A stretch of 64,000 nt of DNA from the NCBI RefSeq assembly GCF_028369105.1, contig NZ_JAQNDO010000001.1, forward strand, positions 12,742,501 through 12,806,500, in the 5' to 3' direction. The notes beneath the pieces are model-generated. The model was not told the origin of the DNA. It searched no databases and worked only from the letters and a program-made list of their open reading frames with translations. Made by a program: the position numbers and the translations under genes. The stretch is from Polyangium mundeleinium. Lineage in GTDB: Bacteria > Myxococcota_A > Polyangia > Polyangiales > Polyangiaceae. Numbering within the stretch: the stretch's first letter is position 1; every line of letters starts with the position of its first letter. Shown piece by piece: positions 14,411-25,994 of the stretch.

Positions 14411-17149
14411 ATGTTCGCCCGCTCGCTTCGCCTCGTTGGGGTTCTTCCTGCCGCACCGCTCCTCGGGCTCCTCGCCTGCGGGGGCGCGCCGCCTGCGCCC
14501 CCGCCCACGCCGCCCTCGTCCGTCGCCAAACCCGCCCCGCCCACGCCGCCCCCGGCGACCCCTTGCGAGACCGCGGACGCGCTGCGAAAGAAGGTCCCCG
14601 CGCTCCTGGGCAAAGGAAAGCTCGACCGCGCCGCGCGCGTGATGGCGCGCGTGCGAGAACTCTGCCCCGAACCGGCTCCGGAGGTGCTGGCCGAGGATCT
14701 GACGACGAGCGCCGAGCTCGCCGTCGAGCTGTACGATTTCACGTCCGCATACAAGCTCGCAACGAAGCTGCTCAGCATCCCCGGCGTGAGCGACGCCCAT
14801 AAGCAGCGATGGCAGACGGCCCGCGCGGCGGCCAACAAAACCGAAAAGAAGCTCGCGTCCCTGTCCGCGCCCGACATCACGAAGGTCGCGCTGCCGCTCG
14901 TCGCGCAAGCCGATGCCCTCGCGGCCAAGGGCGACGAGGCCTCGCTCCGCGCCGCGCGCGAGGCGTACCTCGGCGCCTTCGCGGCGCACCCGAATGGCCA
15001 GGCCGCGCTCGGCGCGGCCCTGGTGACGCGCAGGCTCGGCGACGCGGCCGAGGCGCAGAAACTCTTCGATCGTGCCTTCGGGCTGCTCGCCAGGACCGAA
15101 AAACGAACGCCCACGGTCGTCCTGCCAAACCGTTCCCTCGTCACGAGCTGGCTCGATTGGTCGAGCGACGGCCGCTTCCTCGCGCTCTCGCAAGGCGAGG
15201 CCGTCGGCGGTGGTGACATCGAGATCTCCCTCCTCGACGCGGAGACGAATCGCGAGCACCTCCACCTCTTTTTGCCCTGGGGCCAGGAGGACCACGTCGC
15301 GTTGTCGAGCGACGGCAAGCTCCTCGGCGCGAAGACCTCCTCGAAGGGGTTCGTCCTCGATATCGCCTCGCGCTTCATCGTGCGCGATCTCGACAATCTC
15401 CCCGTCTCGTACACGACCGCATTTTCGCCCGACCTCGGGCGCCTTGCGGCGGTGAAATACGACGAGGCCCTGATCCGCCAGTTCGCGCCGTGGTCCACGA
15501 TCGAGGTGAAGGACGGCTTGCCCGGCGAGGACGAGGAGGCGCGGCCCATCAGCGCAACGTTCTCTCCGGATGGCAAGACGCTCGCCATTCCCTACACCGA
15601 CGAGAAGGTCCGCCTCTGGAACATCGAAAAGCGCCGCGTCTCCGCGATCCTCGGGGGAAATCGTGGGCCCATCTGGCAGACGGCCTTTTCGCGAGATGGG
15701 AGCACCGTCGCCATTTCCACCGACAAGGGCGACGTGCAGCTCTCGGATCCGCGTAGCGGGGCCACGAAAAAGACGATCTCGGTCGCCGCGGACGACCCCG
15801 TCCATACGCTCGCCCTCTCGCCGGATGGCTCCCTCGTCGCCACGGCCAACATCGGCGGCGTCTCCGTGTGGGATGCAAAGACCGGGTCTGTCCGGACGAA
15901 ACTCGAGCAGTTCGTGTATTACGGGGACATTGCCTTCTCGCCCGACGGCCGCCGCCTCGCGGTCACCTGCGAGTCCGGTCCGGTCTGCGTGGTCGACGCG
16001 AACAACGGCGCCCTCTTGAAGAAGCTTCGCTTGCAAGACGCGGGCATAGGAGCGCTGTCGATTTCCACCGACGGAAAGACCCTGGTCGCGCGGCCCTGGG
16101 ACGGCGCCTTGCGGATCCTCGATCTCGAAAAGGGGACCCTGCGGAGCACCCAGCCGCTCTCCGACGACGAAGGCAACGTGGTCCTCTCGGGCGACGGAAA
16201 GCTCCTTGGCGGGGCGGGGAAGGGCATGCGCGTCTGGAACGCCGCGACGGGCGCCACGGTCCGCGAGGAGAAGTTCGTCGATCCTGCCCAGGCCTTCGCA
16301 TTCTCGCCCGATGGCACGTGGGCCGCCGTCGACATGGGCGATGCGATCCTCCTTTTTTCTCTGACGAAGACGAAGGCGCCGGCACGCTCTTTCCAGGGGC
16401 ACACGGGCTCGATCCGGGCCCTCTCGTTTTCCCTCGATGGAAAATACCTCGCCTCCGGCTCGCGCGACAAGACCGTGCGGATCTGGGATGTCGCCGCGGG
16501 CACCGAAAAACTCCGCTTGCCGGAGCACGGCGACGCCGTGACGGCCGTCGCGTTCTCCCCCGACGGAAAACTCCTCGCTTCGGGCTCCGCCGACAAGTCC
16601 GCGCGGGTATGGGACGCGACAACGGGTACGTCTCGCCAAACCTTTGTGGACAAGCACGCAGGCCGCACGGAGAGCGTCAACGAGCTCGCGTTCTCCCCCG
16701 ATGGCACACAGCTCGCCGTGGGCGGGTCCGACAATACCCTCCGGCTCTGGGACCTCGCGACTGGCGAGCCACGCGCCATGCAGAAGGCAGGCGCGAGCGT
16801 CTATTCCCTGGCCTTCACGCCCGACGGCCAATGGCTCGTCACGGGCTGGAGCGACGGGACGCTCCTTTTCCAGCGCTCCACGGGCGAGGGCCCGACTGCC
16901 AGGATCCATTTCCTCGACAAAGAGGACGCGGCCCACGTCCTCGACGGCGAAGGCCACGCCGATTTCCTCGGCAAAAACCCCTGCGCCGCCCGCGCCCGCC
17001 TCCACTGCCGCGCCGGCCGCTTCGGAATGCCGTTCGACCTCTGCGAGGAGCGCGCGTTCACGAGCGGCCTGCTCGCCACGATCCTCGCCGGAAAGCCCGC
17101 CGGAGGCGACCCCTCGCACGAGGACGATCCCCCGCGTTGCGCCCGCTGA
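14411..17149 (+). CDS. WD40-repeat lipoprotein
   Basis: A 912-residue protein with a lipoprotein signal (LLAC, Cys23) and a Pro/Ala-rich linker. A helical region of ~180 residues resembling tetratricopeptide-like packing precedes a long array of WD40-like blades. Recurrent blade motifs include AFSPDGxxLA and the classical SGSRDKTVRIWD and SGSADKSARVWD near the C-terminal third. Two seven-bladed propellers would fit the length. The last ~60 residues contain five cysteines (segments KNPCAARARLHC and FDLCEERAF), as in other myxobacterial WD40 proteins. It probably serves as a surface or periplasmic protein scaffold. The SWIM-protein gene starts 88 bp downstream, so it could head that operon, but this is unproven. 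Confidence 0.82.
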   Translation: MFARSLRLVGVLPAAPLLGLLACGGAPPAPPPTPPSSVAKPAPPTPPPATPCETADALRKKVPALLGKGKLDRAARVMARVRELCPEPAPEVLAEDLTTSAELAVELYDFTSAYKLATKLLSIPGVSDAHKQRWQTARAAANKTEKKLASLSAPDITKVALPLVAQADALAAKGDEASLRAAREAYLGAFAAHPNGQAALGAALVTRRLGDAAEAQKLFDRAFGLLARTEKRTPTVVLPNRSLVTSWLDWSSDGRFLALSQGEAVGGGDIEISLLDAETNREHLHLFLPWGQEDHVALSSDGKLLGAKTSSKGFVLDIASRFIVRDLDNLPVSYTTAFSPDLGRLAAVKYDEALIRQFAPWSTIEVKDGLPGEDEEARPISATFSPDGKTLAIPYTDEKVRLWNIEKRRVSAILGGNRGPIWQTAFSRDGSTVAISTDKGDVQLSDPRSGATKKTISVAADDPVHTLALSPDGSLVATANIGGVSVWDAKTGSVRTKLEQFVYYGDIAFSPDGRRLAVTCESGPVCVVDANNGALLKKLRLQDAGIGALSISTDGKTLVARPWDGALRILDLEKGTLRSTQPLSDDEGNVVLSGDGKLLGGAGKGMRVWNAATGATVREEKFVDPAQAFAFSPDGTWAAVDMGDAILLFSLTKTKAPARSFQGHTGSIRALSFSLDGKYLASGSRDKTVRIWDVAAGTEKLRLPEHGDAVTAVAFSPDGKLLASGSADKSARVWDATTGTSRQTFVDKHAGRTESVNELAFSPDGTQLAVGGSDNTLRLWDLATGEPRAMQKAGASVYSLAFTPDGQWLVTGWSDGTLLFQRSTGEGPTARIHFLDKEDAAHVLDGEGHADFLGKNPCAARARLHCRAGRFGMPFDLCEERAFTSGLLATILAGKPAGGDPSHEDDPPRCAR

Positions 17150-17237
17150 ACCGGTTCGTCCTCGCCCGGACTTTTCCTGTCACACCTCTCCAAACTCCCC
17201 CTCCCCACGTCGGCGTCCTTCTGGTACGGTCCGATGC

Positions 17238-18746
17238 ATGGCTGTGGTCGTCACCGAGCAATCGATCGCCGAGTGGGCGCCGAACGAGAAGGTGCTCATC
17301 GACGCGAGGGCGCTCTTGCGGAAAGGCGCGCTGAAGAAGCTCGCCAAGAACGACGATGGGACCCTCGCCTTCGGCCACTGCGACGGCTCTGGCAGGTCGC
17401 CTTATGCGGTCTCCATGGACCTCACGACCGGAGCGGACAAACCCACCGTCCGATGCTCCTGCCCTTCGCGCCTCTTCCCTTGCAAGCACGGGCTCGCGCT
17501 CCTGCTCGCGTACGCGCAAAAAGGCGCGCTCTTCCCCGTCGAGGAGCCGCCGAAGGACCTTGTCCAAAAGCGCGAAAAGCAGGCGCAAAAGGCGGCCGCC
17601 GAAAAGAAGCCGGCCGCGGCCGCCGCGGCCCCGCGCAGCGTGAACAAGACCGCGCTCGCGAAAAAAGCCAAGGAGCAGAGCGACGCCCTCGATACCCTGG
17701 AGACGTTCCTCGTCGACCTCGTCTCGGGCGGGCTCGGCGGCCTCTCCAGCAAGAGCATCGAAGCGATCGAGCACCAGGCGAAGCGCATGGCCGACGCGGA
17801 CATGAAGCGCACGGCCGGCGTGCTCACGCGCCTCGCGGCGTACGTATCCGGCGATTGGCTCGGCGACGAGGACGACGAAGATGCCCCCGGCGTGCGGGAC
17901 GTCGCGCGAGGCCTCGGCGAAGCGCAGGAGGCGCGCATCGCCTTCATGCTCACGCAGCTCTACACCACCGTTCGCCGCGGAAAGAAGGCGCTCGAAGGGA
18001 AATTCGTCGAAGAGGGCACGACGCAGAGCGAGGCCGACGCGCAGCTCGAATCGATCCTCGGCAAGGCCTGGCGATTGCCCGAGCTCCGCGAGGCCGGCTA
18101 CTGGGTCAAGAATCGCAGGTTCCTGGAGCTCGCGCACGAGCGCTCCGACGACGAGATCAACCAGTTCGCCACGGCGATCGGCTTCCTGGTCGACCTCGAC
18201 GACGGCTCGGTCGTCTGCGAGGTCACGTCGCTCCCGTTCCACACCCTGCCTTTCACGAAGCTCCGCGCGTCGCGCCTCGGCACGCTCGAAATCGCGGAAG
18301 CCGCGCTGTATCCGGGCGACCTCGTGAACCGCCGCGTCCGCTGGGACGAAAAGGTCGAGGGCGCCGTGCGCGAGCGGCCGCGCGAGGCCGCCGATTACGA
18401 GGCCGTGCACCGCCACGGAAAACCGCTCGACCCGGTGCTGCGCGCGATGCGCAATCAGCTCAAGAACCCGCTCCACCCGCTCGACGCGGTGTTTCTGGTC
18501 GCGGCGAAAAAGTTCGGCGACGTGGGCGGCGAGCTCGTGCTCGAGGACGAGGCGGGCATGCGGCTCGTCCTCCGCAACACGAACGACGGCAGGCTCCCGA
18601 GCACCGACGCGCTTCGCCACGCGGCCGCGGCATTCGGCCCGGGCACGCTCGCCGTCCGCCTCCATTACGACCTCCTGGCGCGCGCCATCTACGGCGACCC
18701 GCTCGCGCTCTTCGTGGGCGCCGAGCACCTGCGCCTCCGCGCCTGA
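17238..18746 (+). CDS. SWIM zinc-finger protein, first gene of a SWIM-HEAT-MoxR-DUF5682-VWA operon
   Basis: A 502-residue protein. The start at 17238 is chosen because it begins the conserved N-terminus; the frame upstream overlaps the WD40 gene and is not coding. The SWIM motif CxCx6CxH is at residues 73-84 (CSCPSRLFPCKH), a zinc-binding fold used for nucleic-acid or protein contact. An Ala/Lys-rich linker follows at ~110-150, then a helical C-terminal region without known domains. The next gene is 13 bp downstream. SWIM proteins often sit next to MoxR/VWA gene sets in bacteria, and the tight spacing here supports one operon. It probably acts as the recognition part of the system; that is inference. 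Confidence 0.85.
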   Translation: MAVVVTEQSIAEWAPNEKVLIDARALLRKGALKKLAKNDDGTLAFGHCDGSGRSPYAVSMDLTTGADKPTVRCSCPSRLFPCKHGLALLLAYAQKGALFPVEEPPKDLVQKREKQAQKAAAEKKPAAAAAAPRSVNKTALAKKAKEQSDALDTLETFLVDLVSGGLGGLSSKSIEAIEHQAKRMADADMKRTAGVLTRLAAYVSGDWLGDEDDEDAPGVRDVARGLGEAQEARIAFMLTQLYTTVRRGKKALEGKFVEEGTTQSEADAQLESILGKAWRLPELREAGYWVKNRRFLELAHERSDDEINQFATAIGFLVDLDDGSVVCEVTSLPFHTLPFTKLRASRLGTLEIAEAALYPGDLVNRRVRWDEKVEGAVRERPREAADYEAVHRHGKPLDPVLRAMRNQLKNPLHPLDAVFLVAAKKFGDVGGELVLEDEAGMRLVLRNTNDGRLPSTDALRHAAAAFGPGTLAVRLHYDLLARAIYGDPLALFVGAEHLRLRA

Positions 18747-18759
18747 TCGAAGGGGAACG

Positions 18760-20643
18760 ATGATGGCCAAGGATACCCTGAAGCAACTCGACCGTGACGT
18801 CGACCGCTGGCTCTTCGCCGGCGCGCAGATTGCCCGGACAGACCCGAACCTCGCTGGCGCGAGGGACACGCTCGCCCCGCTCGCCGCGCGCGCGCCCGCG
18901 CTCGGCAAGGTCACCGACCAGATCGAAAAACTCCAGAGCGCCACGGGCAAAGCCGCGGCGTCCGAGCTCCTCGCGCTCGCCTCCCTCATGGCGCAGGTGC
19001 GCGGCGCGCAGGCGACGCCGGCCCTGCCCGAGGCGAGCGGCGACATGCAGCCGCTCCCGCCGGCGCGGAAAATCGGCACGCCGCTCACGCCCACGGAGCT
19101 CAATACGCTCGTCGGCGCCCTGACGAACGCGCCGGATTCGCGCCAGCGCTCCCGCATCATCCGCGATTACGCGACGTCGGATCGCGGCGCGGCGCGGGAC
19201 CTGCGCATCCTGCCGCTCGTCCTTCCGGCGCTCTCGGACGGCGCCATCGCCGAGGTGGTCGTGCAATACCTCGTGCCGGCGCTCGGCGAGGCGATCGTGC
19301 CGAGCCTTCAAAAGCACCTCGACCTCGAAAAGGGCCGCGCGCTCGACGTGCGGCTGCTCCGCGCCATTGCGCAGATCGAGGGGGCGAAGGCCACGAACAT
19401 GCTCCGCGAAGCCATCGAAAAGGGCGGGCCGGACATCCGCGCCGCGGCGATCGCCCAGCTTGGCCGAATCGATCCCCTCGCGGCCGAGCCCATTGCGATC
19501 GTGCTCTCAGACAAGGATCGGTCGAAGGACGTGCGCGTCGCGGCCGTGCATGCCCTCGCCGGGGCCCCGAGCGACGAGGCGCTCGACGTGCTCCTCCGCG
19601 CCTTCGGGGGCACGGCGGAAATGCGCTCGGCCGCCGAAAGCTCGCTCGCCGTGAGCAAGCACCCACGCGCGAACGAGCGGATCCTCGCGCTCTTCACGCC
19701 TGAGCTCCGCGACCTCGGCCATTTCCGGATCAAGAAGACCACGACGAAAGAGGAAAAGGACGCGGCCACGAAGGCGCAGAAGGCCCATACGAACCAGATC
19801 GAATACCTCGTCGACCTCGTCGACCTCCTCACCACGCGCGGCACGGACGAGGGGGCGAACCTCGTGCTCGAAACGTTCCGCCACCACAAGGTCAAGGAAG
19901 TGCGCGACGCGGCGGCGCGTGCGCTCTTGCGGATCGGTTTTCCCGGCGCATGGGAGGAGCTCATGCCGTCGCTCTACGACGCGCCCGACGCCACGAGGGA
20001 CGATTTCGTCGGCGGCGTCATCGCCCTCGACGCGGCGAAGGCTCACGACCGCCTCGCGCGTTTCTTCGAGCCGGCGGCGCTCGCGCGGAAAAATGGCATC
20101 CATCTCGCGCAGGGTATCCTCACGCGGATCGCGAACCATTTCGTGGAGATGGAAGAGGGGGATGACGGCGCGCTGGACACCGGGGAAGCGGCCGAGGCCA
20201 TCGCGGTGATCAGAAAAGACGAGCGCTGGGTGGATCTCGGGGCCGCCATGCTCGAACAGGAGGGACTGCGCGCTCCTGCGCTCACCCTGCTCTTGCATGC
20301 GAACTCGCCGAAGACGCTCGGCGACGAGCTGTCGATCTCGCGCCAGGAGGGTCTGCCCAGCGACGAGGCCCTGCTCGTCTTCGAGTACCTCGGCAAGCAG
20401 CGGGATTCGCGCATCCTGCACGCGTTCATTCGCCTCCTCGAGCCCTTGCATGGCAGCTACGAATACGGCCGCGCCTGCAACGTCATGATCGCGTACGACG
20501 ATCCGGCCCTGGCCCCGATGCTCCGGAGCTGGCTCGACGCGAAGCAAAAGAGGAAGCGCCTCTCGCGCGCCGAGGCGACGCCCTTCGAGGAATGCCTGCG
20601 CTTCCTCGAACGAGCCCGGACGGCGGCGTCCACGGACGATTGA
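18760..20643 (+). CDS. HEAT-repeat protein of the MoxR/VWA operon
   Basis: A 627-residue, all-helical soluble protein with no signal peptide. From residue ~130 onward helical pairs of HEAT/armadillo type repeat, for instance DIRAAAIAQLGRIDPLAAEP, VRVAAVHALAGAPSDEALDV and VRDAAARALLRIGFPGAW. Such solenoids bind other proteins. AAGGGG-type ribosome site (aaggggaacg) just before the ATG. It is 13 bp after the SWIM gene and 48 bp before the AAA+ gene. In comparable clusters this position often holds a large helical protein of unknown function (for example DUF5691 proteins, as I recall); whether this is a divergent member cannot be settled by eye. Confidence 0.8.
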   Translation: MMAKDTLKQLDRDVDRWLFAGAQIARTDPNLAGARDTLAPLAARAPALGKVTDQIEKLQSATGKAAASELLALASLMAQVRGAQATPALPEASGDMQPLPPARKIGTPLTPTELNTLVGALTNAPDSRQRSRIIRDYATSDRGAARDLRILPLVLPALSDGAIAEVVVQYLVPALGEAIVPSLQKHLDLEKGRALDVRLLRAIAQIEGAKATNMLREAIEKGGPDIRAAAIAQLGRIDPLAAEPIAIVLSDKDRSKDVRVAAVHALAGAPSDEALDVLLRAFGGTAEMRSAAESSLAVSKHPRANERILALFTPELRDLGHFRIKKTTTKEEKDAATKAQKAHTNQIEYLVDLVDLLTTRGTDEGANLVLETFRHHKVKEVRDAAARALLRIGFPGAWEELMPSLYDAPDATRDDFVGGVIALDAAKAHDRLARFFEPAALARKNGIHLAQGILTRIANHFVEMEEGDDGALDTGEAAEAIAVIRKDERWVDLGAAMLEQEGLRAPALTLLLHANSPKTLGDELSISRQEGLPSDEALLVFEYLGKQRDSRILHAFIRLLEPLHGSYEYGRACNVMIAYDDPALAPMLRSWLDAKQKRKRLSRAEATPFEECLRFLERARTAASTDD

Positions 20644-20691
20644 CACGACAACCCACGTATCTTCATCGAACGCACGGTCGGGGACAAGAGC

Positions 20692-21822
20692 ATGGCGACG
20701 AAAAAGGACACCCAAAAGGCGGACGGCGGCGAGGGCGCTGTGAAATCGGACGTGCTCCGCGAGCCGGCGGAGCGGCTCTATGCGAGCGAGCTCGAGGCCA
20801 TCGCGGCGGTCGACAAATTCGAAAAGCCAGCGGGCTGGCGGCTCTCGCCGAAGGCCGTGCTCCTCTACATCATGGGCGGCAAGGTCGGCGAGACGAACAT
20901 CACGCCGAAATACGTGGGCGCGTCGCGCATCGTGGAGATCGCGATCGCCACGCTCGCCACGGACCGCGCGCTCCTGCTGATCGGCGAGCCGGGCACCGCG
21001 AAGAGCTGGCTCTCGGAGCACCTCGCGGCGGCCATCTGCAATGACTCGCAGCTCCTCGTCCAGGGCACGGCGGGCACCACCGAAGAGCAGATTCGGTATA
21101 CGTGGAATTACGCGCTCCTCCTCGCGGAGGGGCCGAGCCCGAAGGCGCTCGTGCCCTCGCCCATTCACCGTGGACTCGAAACGGGCAAGCTCGTCCGATT
21201 CGAAGAAATCACGCGTTGCCCCTCGGAGGTGCAGGACGCGCTGATCACGCTCCTCAGCGAGAAGGTCCTCGCCGTGCCCGAGCTCGGCTTGCACGTGCAG
21301 GCGAAGCGCGGGTTCAACGTGATCGCCACGGCGAACACGCGCGACCGCGGCGTCAATGACATGAGCGCAGCCTTGAAGCGACGCTTCAACATCGTCGTGC
21401 TCCCCGTGCCGAGCGACATCGACACCGAGGTCGCCATCGTGGCCCGCCGCGTCCGCGAGATTGGATCGAGCCTGCAATTGCCCGCAGCGCCGCCGGCCGA
21501 GGAGGCCGTGCGTCGTGTGGTGCAGGTCTTCCAGGAGCTCCGGCGAGGCCAGACGATCGACGGCAAGCAAAAGCTGAAGAGCCCCTCGGGCGTCCTCTCC
21601 ACGGCCGAGGCCATCTCGGTGCTCGGCAATGGAATGGCCCTCGCCGGCCATTTCGGCACCGGCCGCGTGAGCGACCGCGACCTTGCCGCGAGCCTGCTCG
21701 GCGCGGTCGTCAAGGAGGATTCGAAGGACGAGGCGGTGTTCGTCGAGTACCTCGAAAACGTGATGAAGAAGCGCGGCGGCGCCTGGGAGCCGCTTTATAC
21801 GGCCTGCAAGGAGCTCGTGTAG
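20692..21822 (+). CDS. MoxR-type AAA+ ATPase
   Basis: A 376-residue AAA+ protein. Walker A GEPGTAKS is at 98-105. The Walker B/acidic segment is VRFEEITRCP and sensor 1 is IATANTRD. The ALKRRFN segment contains the arginine finger typical of MoxR/RavA-like ATPases. These proteins act with VWA-domain partners as ATP-driven chaperones or metal/assembly factors. The VWA partner is encoded two genes downstream (24234) and the intervening gene is only 6 bp away. All catalytic residues seem intact. Confidence 0.92.
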   Translation: MATKKDTQKADGGEGAVKSDVLREPAERLYASELEAIAAVDKFEKPAGWRLSPKAVLLYIMGGKVGETNITPKYVGASRIVEIAIATLATDRALLLIGEPGTAKSWLSEHLAAAICNDSQLLVQGTAGTTEEQIRYTWNYALLLAEGPSPKALVPSPIHRGLETGKLVRFEEITRCPSEVQDALITLLSEKVLAVPELGLHVQAKRGFNVIATANTRDRGVNDMSAALKRRFNIVVLPVPSDIDTEVAIVARRVREIGSSLQLPAAPPAEEAVRRVVQVFQELRRGQTIDGKQKLKSPSGVLSTAEAISVLGNGMALAGHFGTGRVSDRDLAASLLGAVVKEDSKDEAVFVEYLENVMKKRGGAWEPLYTACKELV

Positions 21823-21828
21823 ACAGCC

Positions 21829-24228
21829 ATGGCGGCGAGGAAGGCAAACCTCGGGGCGGTGACGACGGTGGTGCCGGGAAAAACCACACCCACCGCGGGG
21901 CCGCTCGCCCGTATCTTCGGCGTGCGCCACCTCTCGCCGATGGGGGCCTGGCACGTCGAGCGATTCCTCGAACAGGTCGATCCCACGGCCGTGCTCGTCG
22001 AAGGCCCGAGCGACGCGACCGACGAGATCGCGCACCTCCTCGACAAACGCACGAAGCCTCCGGTTGCGCTGCTTGCCTTCACGCAGAAGCGACCCGTCCG
22101 CTCCGTCCTGTTCCCCCTCGCCGCTTATTCGCCCGAGTGGGTGGCGCTCCGCTGGGCGCTCCAGAAAAGCCGCGTGGCCCGCTTCATCGACCTCCCCGCC
22201 TCGGTCTACCTCGCCCGCAGCGAGCCCGCGCCCGAGCACACGCACGAAGACGAATCCGGCGAGGCGGAGGAAAAACAAGAGACGGACACGCAGCGTTACC
22301 TCGGCGATCCCTACGAGGCCATTGCGCAGCTCTCGGGCGATCCGGACCACGACACCTGGTGGGAGCGCTATTTCGAGCACTCGATGACGCCGGATTCCTA
22401 TCGCCTGAGCATCTTCGAGCTCGGCCGCGAGCTCCGCGCGCTCGAATACGAGTCGCCGCGGCGGCGCGAGGAGACGCTCGTGCGCGAGGCGTTCATGCGC
22501 CGTCGGATCCGCGATACGATCGCCGAAGGGCACGATCCGGACCGGATCGTCGTCATCTGCGGTGCCTATCACGCGCCGGTGCTCGTCGCCGAGGAGCCGG
22601 CGATGACGGACGAGGAAATCGAAAAGCTCCCGGCTGTACCGGTCACGCGCACGCTGATGCCGTACAGCTTCTTTCGATTGAGTTCACAATCGGGATACGG
22701 CGCGGGCAACAAGGCGCCCGGGTATTTCCAGACGCTTTACGAGGAGGCCCAGGAGGGCTCGACGGCGCGGCTCGGGACGCGATTCCTCGCGGAGGTCGCT
22801 GGCAGGTTGCGCAAGGCGGGCATGGTGCGATCGAGCGCGGAGGTCATCGAGGCCGTACGGCTCGCCGAAGGCATGGCCTCCCTGCGCGACGCGCACGCGC
22901 CGACGCTGCGCGACCTCGAAGACGCAGCCGCGACCTGCCTCGGCCAAGGCGAGCCTCTGAACGTCGCGCGGTTTATTAACGATGTCGCGGTCGGCGACGC
23001 GCTCGGCAAGGTGCCCCCGGGCGTCTTGCGCACTTCGATTCAGGACGATTTTTATCGCTGGGTGAAGGATCTGCGCCTGGAGGAGTACCTCAAGGACAAG
23101 GAACAGATCATCAAGGGGTCGACGAACAAGGACTGGCTCGACCTCCGGCAAGACCGTTTCGCGAAATCGGAGGACGCGGCGCATCGGGATCGCAATCGCT
23201 CCATCTTCCTGCACCGCCTCACCGCGCTCGGCATCGGATTCGCGGCGAACAAGACGAGCGCGGAGGATCGGACGCAGAGCACGTACAAGGAAATATGGGC
23301 CGCGCGCTGGACGCCCGATTGCGAGATCCAGCTCGTCGAGAACGCGCTCCGGGGCGATACGATCGAGATCGCGGCGGCGCGCTCCATCGGCGAAGCACTC
23401 GAAGCGGCCGAGAACGTGCACGCCGCGGCGAACCTCGCGCGAAGGAGCGTGGAGTGCGACCTCTCGGACGCGACGGCGGCGGCACTCGCCCGCGTCTCAT
23501 CGCTCGCCGTCGACGACGGGGATTTCGTGGCCGTCGCGGGGGCCGCCCTCGAATTGAGCCACCTCGTCGCCTACAAGGACGTACGCAAGATCGACGTCAC
23601 GCCGCTCGAACCGCTCGTCGCCCAGCTCTTTTTGCGCGGCGCGCTCCTCGCGCCCGAGGCCTCGCGCTGCAACGAGGAAGCCTCGCGAAACGTCGGCACC
23701 GCGCTCGGGCACCTGCACCGCGTAGGGCTGATGTTCCCCGACAAACTCGACGGTGATCGTTTCGCGAGCATGCTCGACGCGCTCGCCGACGACGACCTCG
23801 CCTCGGCGCACGTCGCGGGCGTCGCGAGCGCGATCCTCCTCGAACGTGGCGTCCTAAAGGACGACGTCCTCGACCGCCGCATCTCGCGCCGCCTCTGCCC
23901 CGGCGTCTCGCCGAGCGAAGGCGCGGGGTTTTTCGAAGGGCTCGCGACGCGAAACCGGTATGCCTTGCTCTCGCGCCGCTCGCTCTGGGCCGCCATGAGC
24001 ACGTTCGTCGAAGCAATGGACCACGACGATTTCCGGCGCGCCGTCGTCGCGCTCCGCCGCGCATTCGGCTCGTTCGAGACGAGCGAGGCGCGAAAGATCG
24101 CGGCGTTGCTCGCGGAGCTTTGGGGCGGCAACGAAAAAGAGCTGCTCCGGGCCATCGAGACCAAGGTGGACGACGCCGAACTCGCGGCCCTCCAGGATGA
24201 CCTCGTCGATCTGGATCTGGACCTGTAA
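21829..24228 (+). CDS. DUF5682-family protein
   Basis: A 799-residue soluble protein. The start region RIFGVRHLSPMGAWHVERFL, then VEGPSD and a segment reading LLAFTQKRPVRSVLFPLAAY, matches the uncharacterised DUF5682 family, which is regularly found between MoxR ATPase and VWA genes. An acidic stretch (~residues 125-155, HTHEDESGEAEEKQE) and a segment IVVICGAYHAPVL are visible. The HLSP...E and ICGAYH parts recall TraB/ChaN-like folds with conserved His and Glu, so a hydrolase or protease role is conceivable; this is speculation. Overlaps in expression are suggested by gaps of 6 and 5 bp to its neighbours. Confidence 0.82.
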   Translation: MAARKANLGAVTTVVPGKTTPTAGPLARIFGVRHLSPMGAWHVERFLEQVDPTAVLVEGPSDATDEIAHLLDKRTKPPVALLAFTQKRPVRSVLFPLAAYSPEWVALRWALQKSRVARFIDLPASVYLARSEPAPEHTHEDESGEAEEKQETDTQRYLGDPYEAIAQLSGDPDHDTWWERYFEHSMTPDSYRLSIFELGRELRALEYESPRRREETLVREAFMRRRIRDTIAEGHDPDRIVVICGAYHAPVLVAEEPAMTDEEIEKLPAVPVTRTLMPYSFFRLSSQSGYGAGNKAPGYFQTLYEEAQEGSTARLGTRFLAEVAGRLRKAGMVRSSAEVIEAVRLAEGMASLRDAHAPTLRDLEDAAATCLGQGEPLNVARFINDVAVGDALGKVPPGVLRTSIQDDFYRWVKDLRLEEYLKDKEQIIKGSTNKDWLDLRQDRFAKSEDAAHRDRNRSIFLHRLTALGIGFAANKTSAEDRTQSTYKEIWAARWTPDCEIQLVENALRGDTIEIAAARSIGEALEAAENVHAAANLARRSVECDLSDATAAALARVSSLAVDDGDFVAVAGAALELSHLVAYKDVRKIDVTPLEPLVAQLFLRGALLAPEASRCNEEASRNVGTALGHLHRVGLMFPDKLDGDRFASMLDALADDDLASAHVAGVASAILLERGVLKDDVLDRRISRRLCPGVSPSEGAGFFEGLATRNRYALLSRRSLWAAMSTFVEAMDHDDFRRAVVALRRAFGSFETSEARKIAALLAELWGGNEKELLRAIETKVDDAELAALQDDLVDLDLDL

Positions 24229-24233
24229 AAGCC

Positions 24234-25544
24234 ATGGCCAAAAAGAAGGCGCCTCCCGCCCCCACCCCTTCTGCGACGAACCCGCCCGCCGCGACGCCCG
24301 CGCCCGCGGGGCCGATGACGTTCGACCGGCACCAGCGCTGGCGGCTGATCCTCGGCAAGCGTGTCGAGGACCAATTGTGCGGCGGCGGGGGCGCGGGCAT
24401 GGGTGGCCGCGGCGGCAGCGGGCTCCTCACGCGCGAGATGGCGGAAATGGACGCCGCGCTCGGCGCCCTTTACGACATCGAGGAGACCGATCCTGGGAAT
24501 GGGAGCGGCAGCAGCAACAAACGCAGCGCGGGGCTCGGCGCGAGCCGCCCGAAGCTCGCGGCGTGGCTCGGCGACGTGCGCAAGTATTTCGAGCAGGACG
24601 TGGTCGCCGTCATTCAGCAGGACGCGATCGAGAAAAAGGGCTGGAAAGAGCTGCTCTTCGAGCCTGAGTCGCTCGCGCAGATCACGCCGAGCGTCGAGCT
24701 CGTGGGCACGCTGCTCACGATGAAAGACATGATCCCGGACCGGGCCAAGGACGCCGCGCGCGAGATCGTCCGGGCCGTCGTGGAGGAGATCAAGAAGCGA
24801 ATGCAAGGCGAGCTCGAACGCGCGGTGCGCGGCGCGCTCGACCGCTCGCGCCACCAGCCCATCCCGAGCCTGCCGAACCTCGACTGGCGGCGTACGATCG
24901 GAAAAAACCTCAAGAACTATCAAAAGGAGCGCCGTACGATCGTCCCCGATCGGTTCTTCTTTTTCGCTCGGCAGCACCGGCGGCGGGAGTGGAACGTGAT
25001 CGTCGCGATGGACCAGTCCGGCTCGATGGCGAGCAGCGTCGTCTACGGCGGCGTGATGGGCTCGATCCTGGCAAGCTTGCCCGCGCTCGAAACGCACGTG
25101 GTGGCCTTCGACACGGAGGTCGTGGATCTAACGCCGCGGCTCGTGGATCCGGTGGACCTCATCTTCGGCATCCAGCTCGGCGGCGGGACGGACATCAACC
25201 GCGCGGTCGGGTATTGTCAGGGCCTCGTCTCGAACCCGCGCCGGACGCTCTTCATTCTGCTGACGGATCTTTACGAAGGCGGCAATCAGGAGCAGATGGT
25301 GAAGCGCATGGAGGAGATGGTGCAGAGTGGCGTACGCGCGATGTGCCTCCTCGCGCTCGACGATTCGGGGACGCCGATGTACGACGCGGAACTCGCGAAG
25401 AAACTCGCGAAGCTCGGCGTGCCTTGTTTCGCGTGCACGCCGAATGCACTGCCGCCGATGCTGGAGGCGGCGCTCAAGGGGCACGATCTGGAGATGATCG
25501 CGCGGCGGTTCGACGCGCGGAAGGCGGAGGGGCGCGACGCGTAG
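24234..25544 (+). CDS. VWA-domain protein, partner of the MoxR ATPase
   Basis: A 436-residue protein. The N-terminal ~30 residues are Ala/Pro/Lys-rich, then a helical region. The C-terminal von Willebrand A domain starts near residue 252. Its metal-ion-dependent adhesion site is complete: DQSGSMASS (260-268), GGGTD (Thr319, Asp320) and TDLYEGG (Asp345). In MoxR systems the VWA protein is the adaptor that links the AAA+ ring to its target. It closes an operon of five genes with gaps of 13, 48, 6 and 5 bp. No signal peptide; cytoplasmic. Confidence 0.9.
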   Translation: MAKKKAPPAPTPSATNPPAATPAPAGPMTFDRHQRWRLILGKRVEDQLCGGGGAGMGGRGGSGLLTREMAEMDAALGALYDIEETDPGNGSGSSNKRSAGLGASRPKLAAWLGDVRKYFEQDVVAVIQQDAIEKKGWKELLFEPESLAQITPSVELVGTLLTMKDMIPDRAKDAAREIVRAVVEEIKKRMQGELERAVRGALDRSRHQPIPSLPNLDWRRTIGKNLKNYQKERRTIVPDRFFFFARQHRRREWNVIVAMDQSGSMASSVVYGGVMGSILASLPALETHVVAFDTEVVDLTPRLVDPVDLIFGIQLGGGTDINRAVGYCQGLVSNPRRTLFILLTDLYEGGNQEQMVKRMEEMVQSGVRAMCLLALDDSGTPMYDAELAKKLAKLGVPCFACTPNALPPMLEAALKGHDLEMIARRFDARKAEGRDA

Positions 25545-25628: not shown

Positions 25629-25994
25629 GTGGCGAAAATCACGATCTACGAGACGTTCACGAAGGCCGACATCGACGCGCTCCTCACGGTCGGCGCCCAT
25701 CTCGCGCTGGCATTCGATGCATCCCATCCGCACGCGGTAAAATCCGTCCACCTCGAGCTCGGCATGCAGATCTCGGCGACCCAGATCGTCGACCTCGAAT
25801 CGCGGTTCCACTCCACGTACATCAAGCTCAAGGGCGGCCTGATGCACGGCGAGGGGAAGTACAAGCTCGAAGCGCACCACTTCGAGCAGGACATCGTGGA
25901 CGCGTCGCCGAAGTCCTACGAGATCCGGAAGAACCGCGCCATCGTCAAGCACGGCGACGTGGGCGGGATGGTCGCCGATATCGGCTGGTGGTGA
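25629..25994 (+). CDS. Conserved-looking small protein, function unknown
   Basis: A 121-residue protein starting at the GTG at 25629, chosen because GGGAGGAGA lies 8 bp upstream; the frame extends to a TTG at 25596 but that extension looks non-coding. It has no signal peptide, no cysteine and no recognised motif. Composition (balanced acidic/basic, several aromatic residues, His-rich middle) is that of a real folded protein. Its last 50 bp overlap the 3' end of the convergent membrane-protein gene. Cotranscription with the VWA operon, 84 bp upstream, is possible. Confidence 0.6.
   Translation: MAKITIYETFTKADIDALLTVGAHLALAFDASHPHAVKSVHLELGMQISATQIVDLESRFHSTYIKLKGGLMHGEGKYKLEAHHFEQDIVDASPKSYEIRKNRAIVKHGDVGGMVADIGWW

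Follow-up and report, generated by a model that had tools for sequence, protein, structure and literature searches.

Do the five closely spaced genes of Polyangium mundeleinium that code for a SWIM zinc-finger protein, a HEAT-repeat protein, a MoxR ATPase, a DUF5682 protein and a VWA protein form one unit, and what might such a unit do? They lie in a window of 64,000 nucleotides, positions 12,742,501-12,806,500 of contig 1 of the 13.25 Mb genome; coordinates below are those of the window unless a locus is named. By its DUF5682 protein, the closest named relative is Polyangium fumosum (96% identity). The first-pass annotation of this DNA had read the genes as one molecular machine. The five genes are one conserved, widespread unit. 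Judged by sequence comparison, the operon belongs to a MoxR-VWA system of the YehLMPQ type that is widespread but unstudied, and represents a variant of it with a HEAT gene. The main new result is the TraB-like identity of DUF5682, a family previously unassigned.

Each of the five domain assignments is borne out by Pfam: SWIM (PF04434; E 1.4e-5, 24.9 bits against a cut-off of 19.6), HEAT_2 (E 8e-11), AAA_5 (E 3.5e-37), DUF5682 (E 3.4e-155) and VWA_CoxE (E 4.1e-50). The gaps of 13, 48, 6 and 5 bp that the first-pass annotation gave between the genes follow exactly from the coordinates of the open reading frames (ORFs; Table 1). The SWIM ligands, Walker motifs and metal ion-dependent adhesion site (MIDAS) that it called intact were all located in the window proteins. 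The SWIM motif, CSCPSRLFPCKH, starts at residue 73, and the CxC...CxH zinc ligands are kept in 70 of 71 matches to the SWIM profile. The MoxR protein has the Walker A motif GEPGTAKS from residue 98, the Walker B motif VRFEEI, and the ATAN and LKRRF motifs. Its Walker B is a variant, as RFEEI has a Glu-Glu pair, unlike the Asp-Glu of a textbook MoxR, and the first Walker B pattern match has Glu-Glu in 115 of 118 MoxR matches. The patterns GE.G..K[ST], ATAN and LKRRF, all three present in the window, are found in 109, 108 and 112 of these. The MIDAS of the window VWA protein consists of DQSGSM, GGTDI and LLTDL; D.SGS is present in all 113 VWA matches, the GGT pattern in 100 and the [ST]D pattern in 97.

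To follow the unit across species, genomes were scanned with a DUF5682 alignment and the best 80 of 559 confirmed relatives were compared, the total being higher still. Close relatives of the window DUF5682 protein are overrepresented in this sample, and many of its Bacillota are Paenibacillus. A locus could be judged when its contig continued for 5.6 kb upstream of DUF5682 and for 1.5 kb downstream, as was the case for 64 of the 80. The order SWIM-HEAT-MoxR-DUF5682-VWA on one strand is found in 64 of the 80 relatives overall and in 61 of the 64 judgeable loci, with hosts among the Myxococcota, Planctomycetota, Verrucomicrobiota and Bacillota. Counted as complete were L064, with MoxR in two overlapping ORFs, and L104, with two HEAT genes. 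One exception is L038, where the sole VWA-like match is weak and 8.5 kb distant; two more, L046 and L082, are weighed below. The remaining 13 incomplete loci have too little contig room. Compared with four Polyangium loci, the five genes have ratios of nonsynonymous to synonymous substitution rates (dN/dS) of 0.05-0.35, indicating purifying selection. HEAT is the least constrained gene (0.19-0.35), VWA and MoxR the most (0.05-0.15). Because the same order recurs in 61 of 64 judgeable loci and dN/dS is 0.05-0.35, the arrangement goes beyond chance. Since the genes co-occur across phyla, their neighbourhoods side with the unit proposed by the first-pass annotation.

The AlphaFold2 model of the DUF5682 protein (58 sequences; mean predicted local distance difference test score, pLDDT, 89.9) has an alpha/beta domain at about residues 24-280 and then an alpha-solenoid at about 297-791. 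The Pfam DUF5682 match begins at residue 43, past the first motif. In an alignment of 125 DUF5682 sequences, whose rows are not independent as many are close relatives, H34 is present in 124 (the remaining row, L040, is truncated by its contig) and E58, R219, G245 and H248 in all 125. Also invariant are E103, D121 and M223, while the G of the first motif is G in 106 rows and P in 18. TraB proteins from the relatives have the pattern GTxH...E...R...GxxH. By hhalign, DUF5682 matches a TraB profile built from 23 of the 28 rows found at 92.4% (P 5.2e-7, 200 columns), with the first H, the E, the R and the GxxH of the two families paired; a control SWIM profile gave 0.2%. For residues 21-257 of the model, the best VIA-align match is 7w5z_E (Z 9.7, root-mean-square deviation (rmsd) 4.5, 197 residues), which was deposited as 'TraB family protein'. 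The published description of a ciliate supercomplex, in the portion available, gives a TraB-family subunit for complex IV. The Pfam TraB model has no match in the window's genome, and profile searches of DUF5682 and SWIM against solved structures gave nothing convincing. Because the motif, profile and fold lines agree, we assign to the start of DUF5682, with middling to good confidence, a domain like those of the TraB/TIKI superfamily. In the sections of the TIKI-superfamily literature available, a His/Glu active site is essential and metal dependence varies.

Relatives of the operon are also encoded in Escherichia coli. By BLASTP, YehL matches the window MoxR with 42.6% identity over 359 residues (E 5.8e-86), YehM the DUF5682 protein with 28.1% (E 4.8e-25) and YehP the VWA protein with 35.8% (E 2.6e-77). 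Adjoining yehL, yehM and yehP is yehQ, annotated as coding for a SWIM protein and related to the double-SWIM proteins of the L114 type described below. Of 5426 E. coli genomes, 5301 have a match to the four-gene stretch yehL-yehQ, and in 5162 the match covers 80% or more of it; 5320 of 5322 places are chromosomal. A WGR-DUF4132-type profile, in which yehI is itself included, matches yehF, yehI and the two parts of the yehH pseudogene in the K-12 region from yehF to yehQ (L004). The WGR-DUF4132 component thus seems to be present in several copies in the E. coli cluster, one of them broken. The available parts of published MoxR subfamily lists name YehL as a separate subfamily, its function not stated. 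The first-pass annotation had held that no function of the DUF5682 set was established, and none was found in the open-licence literature, where we found no mention of DUF5682, but it had missed the yehLMPQ relatives. For two or more of yehL, yehM, yehP and yehQ, the open-licence literature, by titles, gave only a genome announcement and a strain collection.

We also examined how the set varies within the window's class. A DUF5682 match is present in 54 of 192 genomes, 50 of them above the family cut-off, and 40 further regions were picked by hand from the places in this survey, not all of which were taken. MoxR, DUF5682 and VWA are all present in 39 of the 40, the exception being L126 with no VWA match. 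VWA lies 2.0 to 4.6 kb from DUF5682 in L115, L117 and L139, and MoxR is on the opposite strand in L128. DUF5682 and VWA are in one open frame in eight of the 40 regions. The constant core is MoxR-DUF5682-VWA, and the other genes vary by clade. In the window's clade SWIM and HEAT are ahead of this triad, and another partner set has SWIM downstream of it. A full-length WGR-DUF4132-type protein precedes the triad in six of the 40 regions, as yehI does, with a double SWIM after it in several; L128 has only a weak, short DUF4132 match. The fused DUF5682-VWA form has a 1,600-residue protein ahead and SWIM after. A further partner set is c8, with c9 adjoining in five of seven loci, and the c9 of L147 has a SWIM-like segment.

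The five larger partner sets follow the clades of the DUF5682 tree, with 4 changes, the minimum possible, against a shuffled mean of 25.0. For this count labels were given by hand from gene content and 15 of 65 rows were left unlabelled, among them L131, L128, two very small groups, L046, L082, L066 and L078; L041 was labelled with the HEAT group though its contig stops short of SWIM. No SWIM was seen in L066 and L078, where the contig ends, and these two fall with L046 and L082 inside the window's clade. The tree is a quick one, with long branches for L131, L120, L139 and L004. The order SWIM-DUF5691-AAA-DUF5682-VWA is found in Deinococcus taeanensis and Rhizobium etli, and Methylosinus trichosporium has the same DUF5691 order with no VWA in an incomplete gene table. 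The HEAT protein, which the first-pass annotation counted among the parts of the machine, is not a required member, since other clades encode DUF5691 or WGR-DUF4132 proteins in its place. The HEAT profile matches one DUF4132 protein (E 1.6e-6). Homology of the HEAT protein to DUF4132 or DUF5691 was considered and found no support, hhalign giving 1.0% and 2.5%.

The window's genome encodes two more copies, both in other DUF5682 clades. The second (L114, G000:C1:716001-736000) is of the E. coli type, with WGR-DUF4132-type, MoxR, DUF5682, VWA and double-SWIM proteins. The third (L115, G000:C1:3335001-3355000) has MoxR-DUF5682 with VWA about 4.6 kb off; L117 resembles it, with VWA about 4.1 kb off, and both have an ORF of 859-868 aa with a SWIM-like motif, CDCP...CLH. 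Among the class loci, L131 has the top Pfam score for DUF5682, 846.7 bits, and a SWIM gene ahead of the triad, from which some 2.9 kb separate it. In L151, L152 and L153, MoxR and VWA are accompanied by a highly divergent DUF5682-like protein of roughly 1,000 aa that retains H, E, R and GxxH; CAP-domain and CBM9-like proteins are near it in L151.

The model of the SWIM protein (42 sequences, mean pLDDT 90.1) predicts an N-terminal ZSWIM8-like SWIM domain and a helical middle; its SWIM part matches ZSWIM8 with Z 11.9 and rmsd 2.5 over 98 residues. Residues from about 283 to 496 match mostly folds of the oligonucleotide/oligosaccharide-binding (OB) type, often in tandem: RPA70, the best match (Foldseek E 6.5e-4), HIN and TEBP. 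These tandem OB folds bind single- or double-stranded DNA. The model thereby suggests that the C-terminal half may well contain two OB-like barrels, and the SWIM protein could possibly bind nucleic acid. The sole clear homologue of the window SWIM protein in another partner set is that of the downstream-SWIM clade (hhalign 99.6%).

One DUF5691-bearing operon has a suggestive upstream region. Ahead of the SWIM-DUF5691-AAA-DUF5682-VWA genes of D. taeanensis (L182:4708-4753) is a TTGACA/TACAAT pair, spotted by eye, and then a palindrome resembling the DdrO site or radiation/desiccation response motif (RDRM). The palindrome directly follows the -10-like box and ends 20 bp ahead of the annotated SWIM start. 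It has two mismatches on one strand and three on the other to the DdrO-site consensus, taken from the part of PMC8533742 available. The 19.4 kb locus has three matches with at most three mismatches against 1.76 expected. As 53 of 200 shuffles do as well, the position of the palindrome outweighs its score. In Deinococcus radiodurans, DUF4132 or WGR proteins rise with mitomycin C and do not without IrrE, according to the same part of PMC8533742. DUF4132 and WGR are the domains of the alternative partner, WGR-DUF4132, in other clades.

From these data we favor a MoxR-VWA remodelling machine of the YehL type, coupled to a TraB-like, hydrolase-like subunit and serving a stress response or quality control, with a probability of about one half. 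The five products would act as a complex in which a MoxR ring hydrolyses ATP and VWA holds a partner through its metal-dependent MIDAS. Together MoxR and VWA would act on or feed DUF5682, with its hydrolase-like first domain and alpha-solenoid second half. The SWIM and HEAT proteins may be recognition adaptors, possibly for nucleic-acid-bound targets. In its likely role, the machine would use ATP to remodel a specific protein or protein-nucleic-acid target and would hydrolyse it. Direct contact between DUF5682 and VWA is argued by the single open frame in eight of the 40 regions. Since the TraB-like subunit equals the motor in constancy and is fused to VWA in one clade, we favor a motor that, with VWA, would control or feed the hydrolase-like subunit. 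According to the portions of the literature available, the remodelling and maturation of protein complexes are known or proposed roles of MoxR proteins, several of which have VWA partners. A jumbo phage MoxR-vWA pair, its vWA fused to a metallopeptidase domain, is a published precedent, as far as the accessible text goes, for a tie to a peptidase.

Several observations weigh against this reading. L046 and L082, inside the window's clade and with contig room, have no SWIM or HEAT. Of the 40 further regions, 24 have a SWIM motif near DUF5682, and at least L118 and L140 among the 40 end early at a contig boundary. Apart from the SWIM motif itself, the SWIM proteins of other clades have little in common with the window's; YehQ matches the window SWIM protein with a BLASTP E of 0.12, and the YehQ-type alignment gives 4.5% by hhalign. 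The OB matches have a Z of at most 6.8, under the tool's safe level. The TraB link consists of one VIA-align match, the 92% profile match and the motifs. Among the VIA-align matches listed, 7w5z_E alone covers the alpha/beta domain, and Foldseek on the whole DUF5682 model gave mostly repeat proteins, no TraB match and none at or below 0.001 among the matches listed (50 of 629). There are no SOS-type boxes before the window operon, and the Gram-positive type, GAACN4GTTC, is in two of 70 other upstream regions against 0.43 expected. In 39 Paenibacillus/Cohnella loci no shared upstream dyad was found except A/T runs. Because there is no general SOS box or shared dyad, the link to DNA damage comes from one plasmid, that of D. 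taeanensis. SOS-type boxes were accordingly dropped as a general means of regulation, being rare in the 70 upstream regions and missing from the window; GTTCN7GTTC occurs in one of the 70 against 1.5 expected, and no exact CTGTN8ACAG site is found in 30 kb around yeh, where 0.28 is expected.

It is also possible that MoxR and VWA are a NorQD/CoxDE-like chaperone for the TraB-like DUF5682, carrying out metal insertion or activation, with SWIM and HEAT as helpers or substrates. The client of a MoxR protein is often coded beside it, and the TraB-like domain could be a metalloenzyme client in the operon. The window VWA is CoxE-like. In the parts of the literature available, maturing or activating specific enzymes and inserting cofactors are known or proposed tasks of MoxR proteins, several of them with VWA, and members of the TIKI superfamily can be metal-dependent, though some are not. 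However, DUF5682 is as constant as MoxR and VWA and can be in one open frame with VWA, which makes it more a subunit than a changing client, and over half of it is predicted to be solenoid. We treat this maturase as the main rival to the remodelling machine, while thinking it rather unlikely. That the TraB-like domain is a binding platform and the DUF5682 protein a scaffold, not an enzyme, has a parallel in at least one TIKI-superfamily protein, which, in the text available, lacks the catalytic motif and the activity tested. Here 124-125 of 125 sequences, drawn from several phyla, keep the His/Glu/Arg motif unchanged, as would hardly be expected of a dead site, and we give the scaffold very little credence.

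The first-pass annotation had also likened the set to conflict systems, and an anti-phage or conflict role like that of the MoxR-vWA ternary systems of Kaur et al. 2020 would fit a related ATPase (the bpMoxR model scores 24.8 bits in the window and 27.8 in D. taeanensis, with a cut-off of 27), the patchy distribution in the class and the several copies per genome. It is at odds with the near-universal, chromosomal presence in E. coli and with the purifying selection on the five genes. The best PADLOC matches of the five proteins are 0.0059 (HEAT, OloA) and 0.02 (MoxR, mad8), and with the window's protein as query, matches were found in one record out of 50,697 from phages and in 37 out of 72,556 from plasmids. 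The text of PMC7159879 does not contain SWIM, TIKI, YehM, YehL or EreA. The beta-propeller expected as a constant part of ternary conflict systems was not found as such, a WD40 gene preceding the operon in four named Polyangium loci only. We also scanned 93 of 128 ORFs, chosen by length near 32 operons, with 30 operons represented and very long ORFs, both Polyangium loci and some others left out. Among the Pfam families listed (25 of 71) these flanking ORFs are mostly for transport, metabolism and regulation. PADLOC matches are in few members; among the families listed (25 of 36), mad3 is in three and PD-T4-6, mad6, MkoA, PglW and the rest in one each. A defence neighbourhood was thus set aside, with no clear defence pattern among the families listed, and RtcB RNA ligase was seen in two of the 93 flanking proteins. 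Given little support for the analogy from PADLOC, E. coli, phage records and flanks, the operon is probably not a defence system, and we consider such a role improbable.

In a bolder form of the remodelling machine, yehLMPQ and its relatives, which are conserved across bacterial phyla and in almost every E. coli, would constitute a hitherto unrecognised class of hydrolase machine driven by ATP. SWIM-OB and a swappable HEAT, DUF5691 or WGR-DUF4132 adaptor would recognise substrates on nucleic acid that is damaged or stalled, and a MoxR ring with its VWA adaptor would feed them to the TraB/TIKI-type site of DUF5682. Such a machine would be a second type of AAA+ protease, serving genome maintenance. 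This is speculative and in our view doubtful. The five-gene set spans Bacillota to Myxococcota and Planctomycetota, and a related set is on nearly every E. coli chromosome. Placing DUF5682 with TraB/TIKI points to candidate catalytic residues that can be tested in the YehM of K-12, and it suggests that a hydrolase can be linked to a MoxR-VWA motor.

The genes on either side seem to lie outside the unit (Table 1). A homologue of the upstream WD40 gene precedes the operon in the four named Polyangium loci and is absent before it in L135, a region from the same genus; the WD40 matches in L052 and L140 are to ORFs elsewhere in those regions. It also evolves faster than the operon (65.9-74.2% identity, dN/dS 0.47-0.54 among Polyangium loci). 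The first-pass annotation had left its membership undecided; by its absence before the operon in L135 and its faster evolution it was excluded. A terminator-like site at 17153-17172, past the WD40 stop, carries little weight because such sites are no commoner here than in shuffles (11 against 7.3, standard deviation 3.4). The small downstream gene was likewise rejected, with no Pfam match and, among the loci searched, matches only in the four named Polyangium ones.

Table 1. Features of the five-gene operon and its neighbours in the window
Feature	Position	Strand	Basis	Place
SWIM zinc-finger protein, 502 aa	17238..18746	+	ORF, Pfam, motif, model	
HEAT-repeat protein, 627 aa, adaptor position	18760..20643	+	ORF, Pfam	
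MoxR AAA+ ATPase, YehL type, 376 aa	20692..21822	+	ORF, Pfam, BLASTP, motifs	
DUF5682 protein, 799 aa	21829..24228	+	ORF, Pfam, BLASTP, model, alignment	
TraB/TIKI-like domain of DUF5682, residues 28-280, H34/E58/R219/H248	21910..22668	+	model, profile, alignment	
VWA (CoxE-like) protein, 436 aa, MIDAS intact	24234..25544	+	ORF, Pfam, BLASTP, motifs	
WD40-repeat lipoprotein-like gene	14411-17149			upstream of operon
Small gene	25629-25994			downstream of operon

Like the ternary systems of Kaur et al. 2020, as described in the accessible part of PMC7159879, the operon combines MoxR and vWA with a third component, but its MoxR stays under the bpMoxR cut-off. With the TraB/TIKI/erythromycin-esterase/ChaN superfamily the N-terminal domain of DUF5682 shares GxxH, E, R and GxxH and a fold match; what sets it apart are the long solenoid to which it is joined and the AAA+ ATPase and VWA genes alongside. 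In E. coli yehLMPQ, the MoxR, DUF5682, VWA and SWIM genes are adjacent and in one direction, with L, M and P clear homologues. There, however, yehI (DUF4132) is upstream and no HEAT gene is present, YehQ comes last with two SWIM motifs and a similarity to the window SWIM protein confined to the motif, and YehM belongs to another DUF5682 clade. The DUF5691 operons of Deinococcus, Rhizobium and Methylosinus have SWIM, MoxR, DUF5682 and, Methylosinus aside, VWA homologous to the window's and in the same order. In these, DUF5691 takes the HEAT slot without detectable homology to the window HEAT protein, Walker A is GVPGTAKS or GLPGTAKS, and the RFEE pattern was not found. Similar to RavA-ViaA, NorQ-NorD and CoxD-CoxE, as portrayed in the portions of the literature available, the operon encodes a MoxR ATPase beside a CoxE-like VWA with a MIDAS, but it adds a third constant partner, DUF5682, together with SWIM and repeat proteins.

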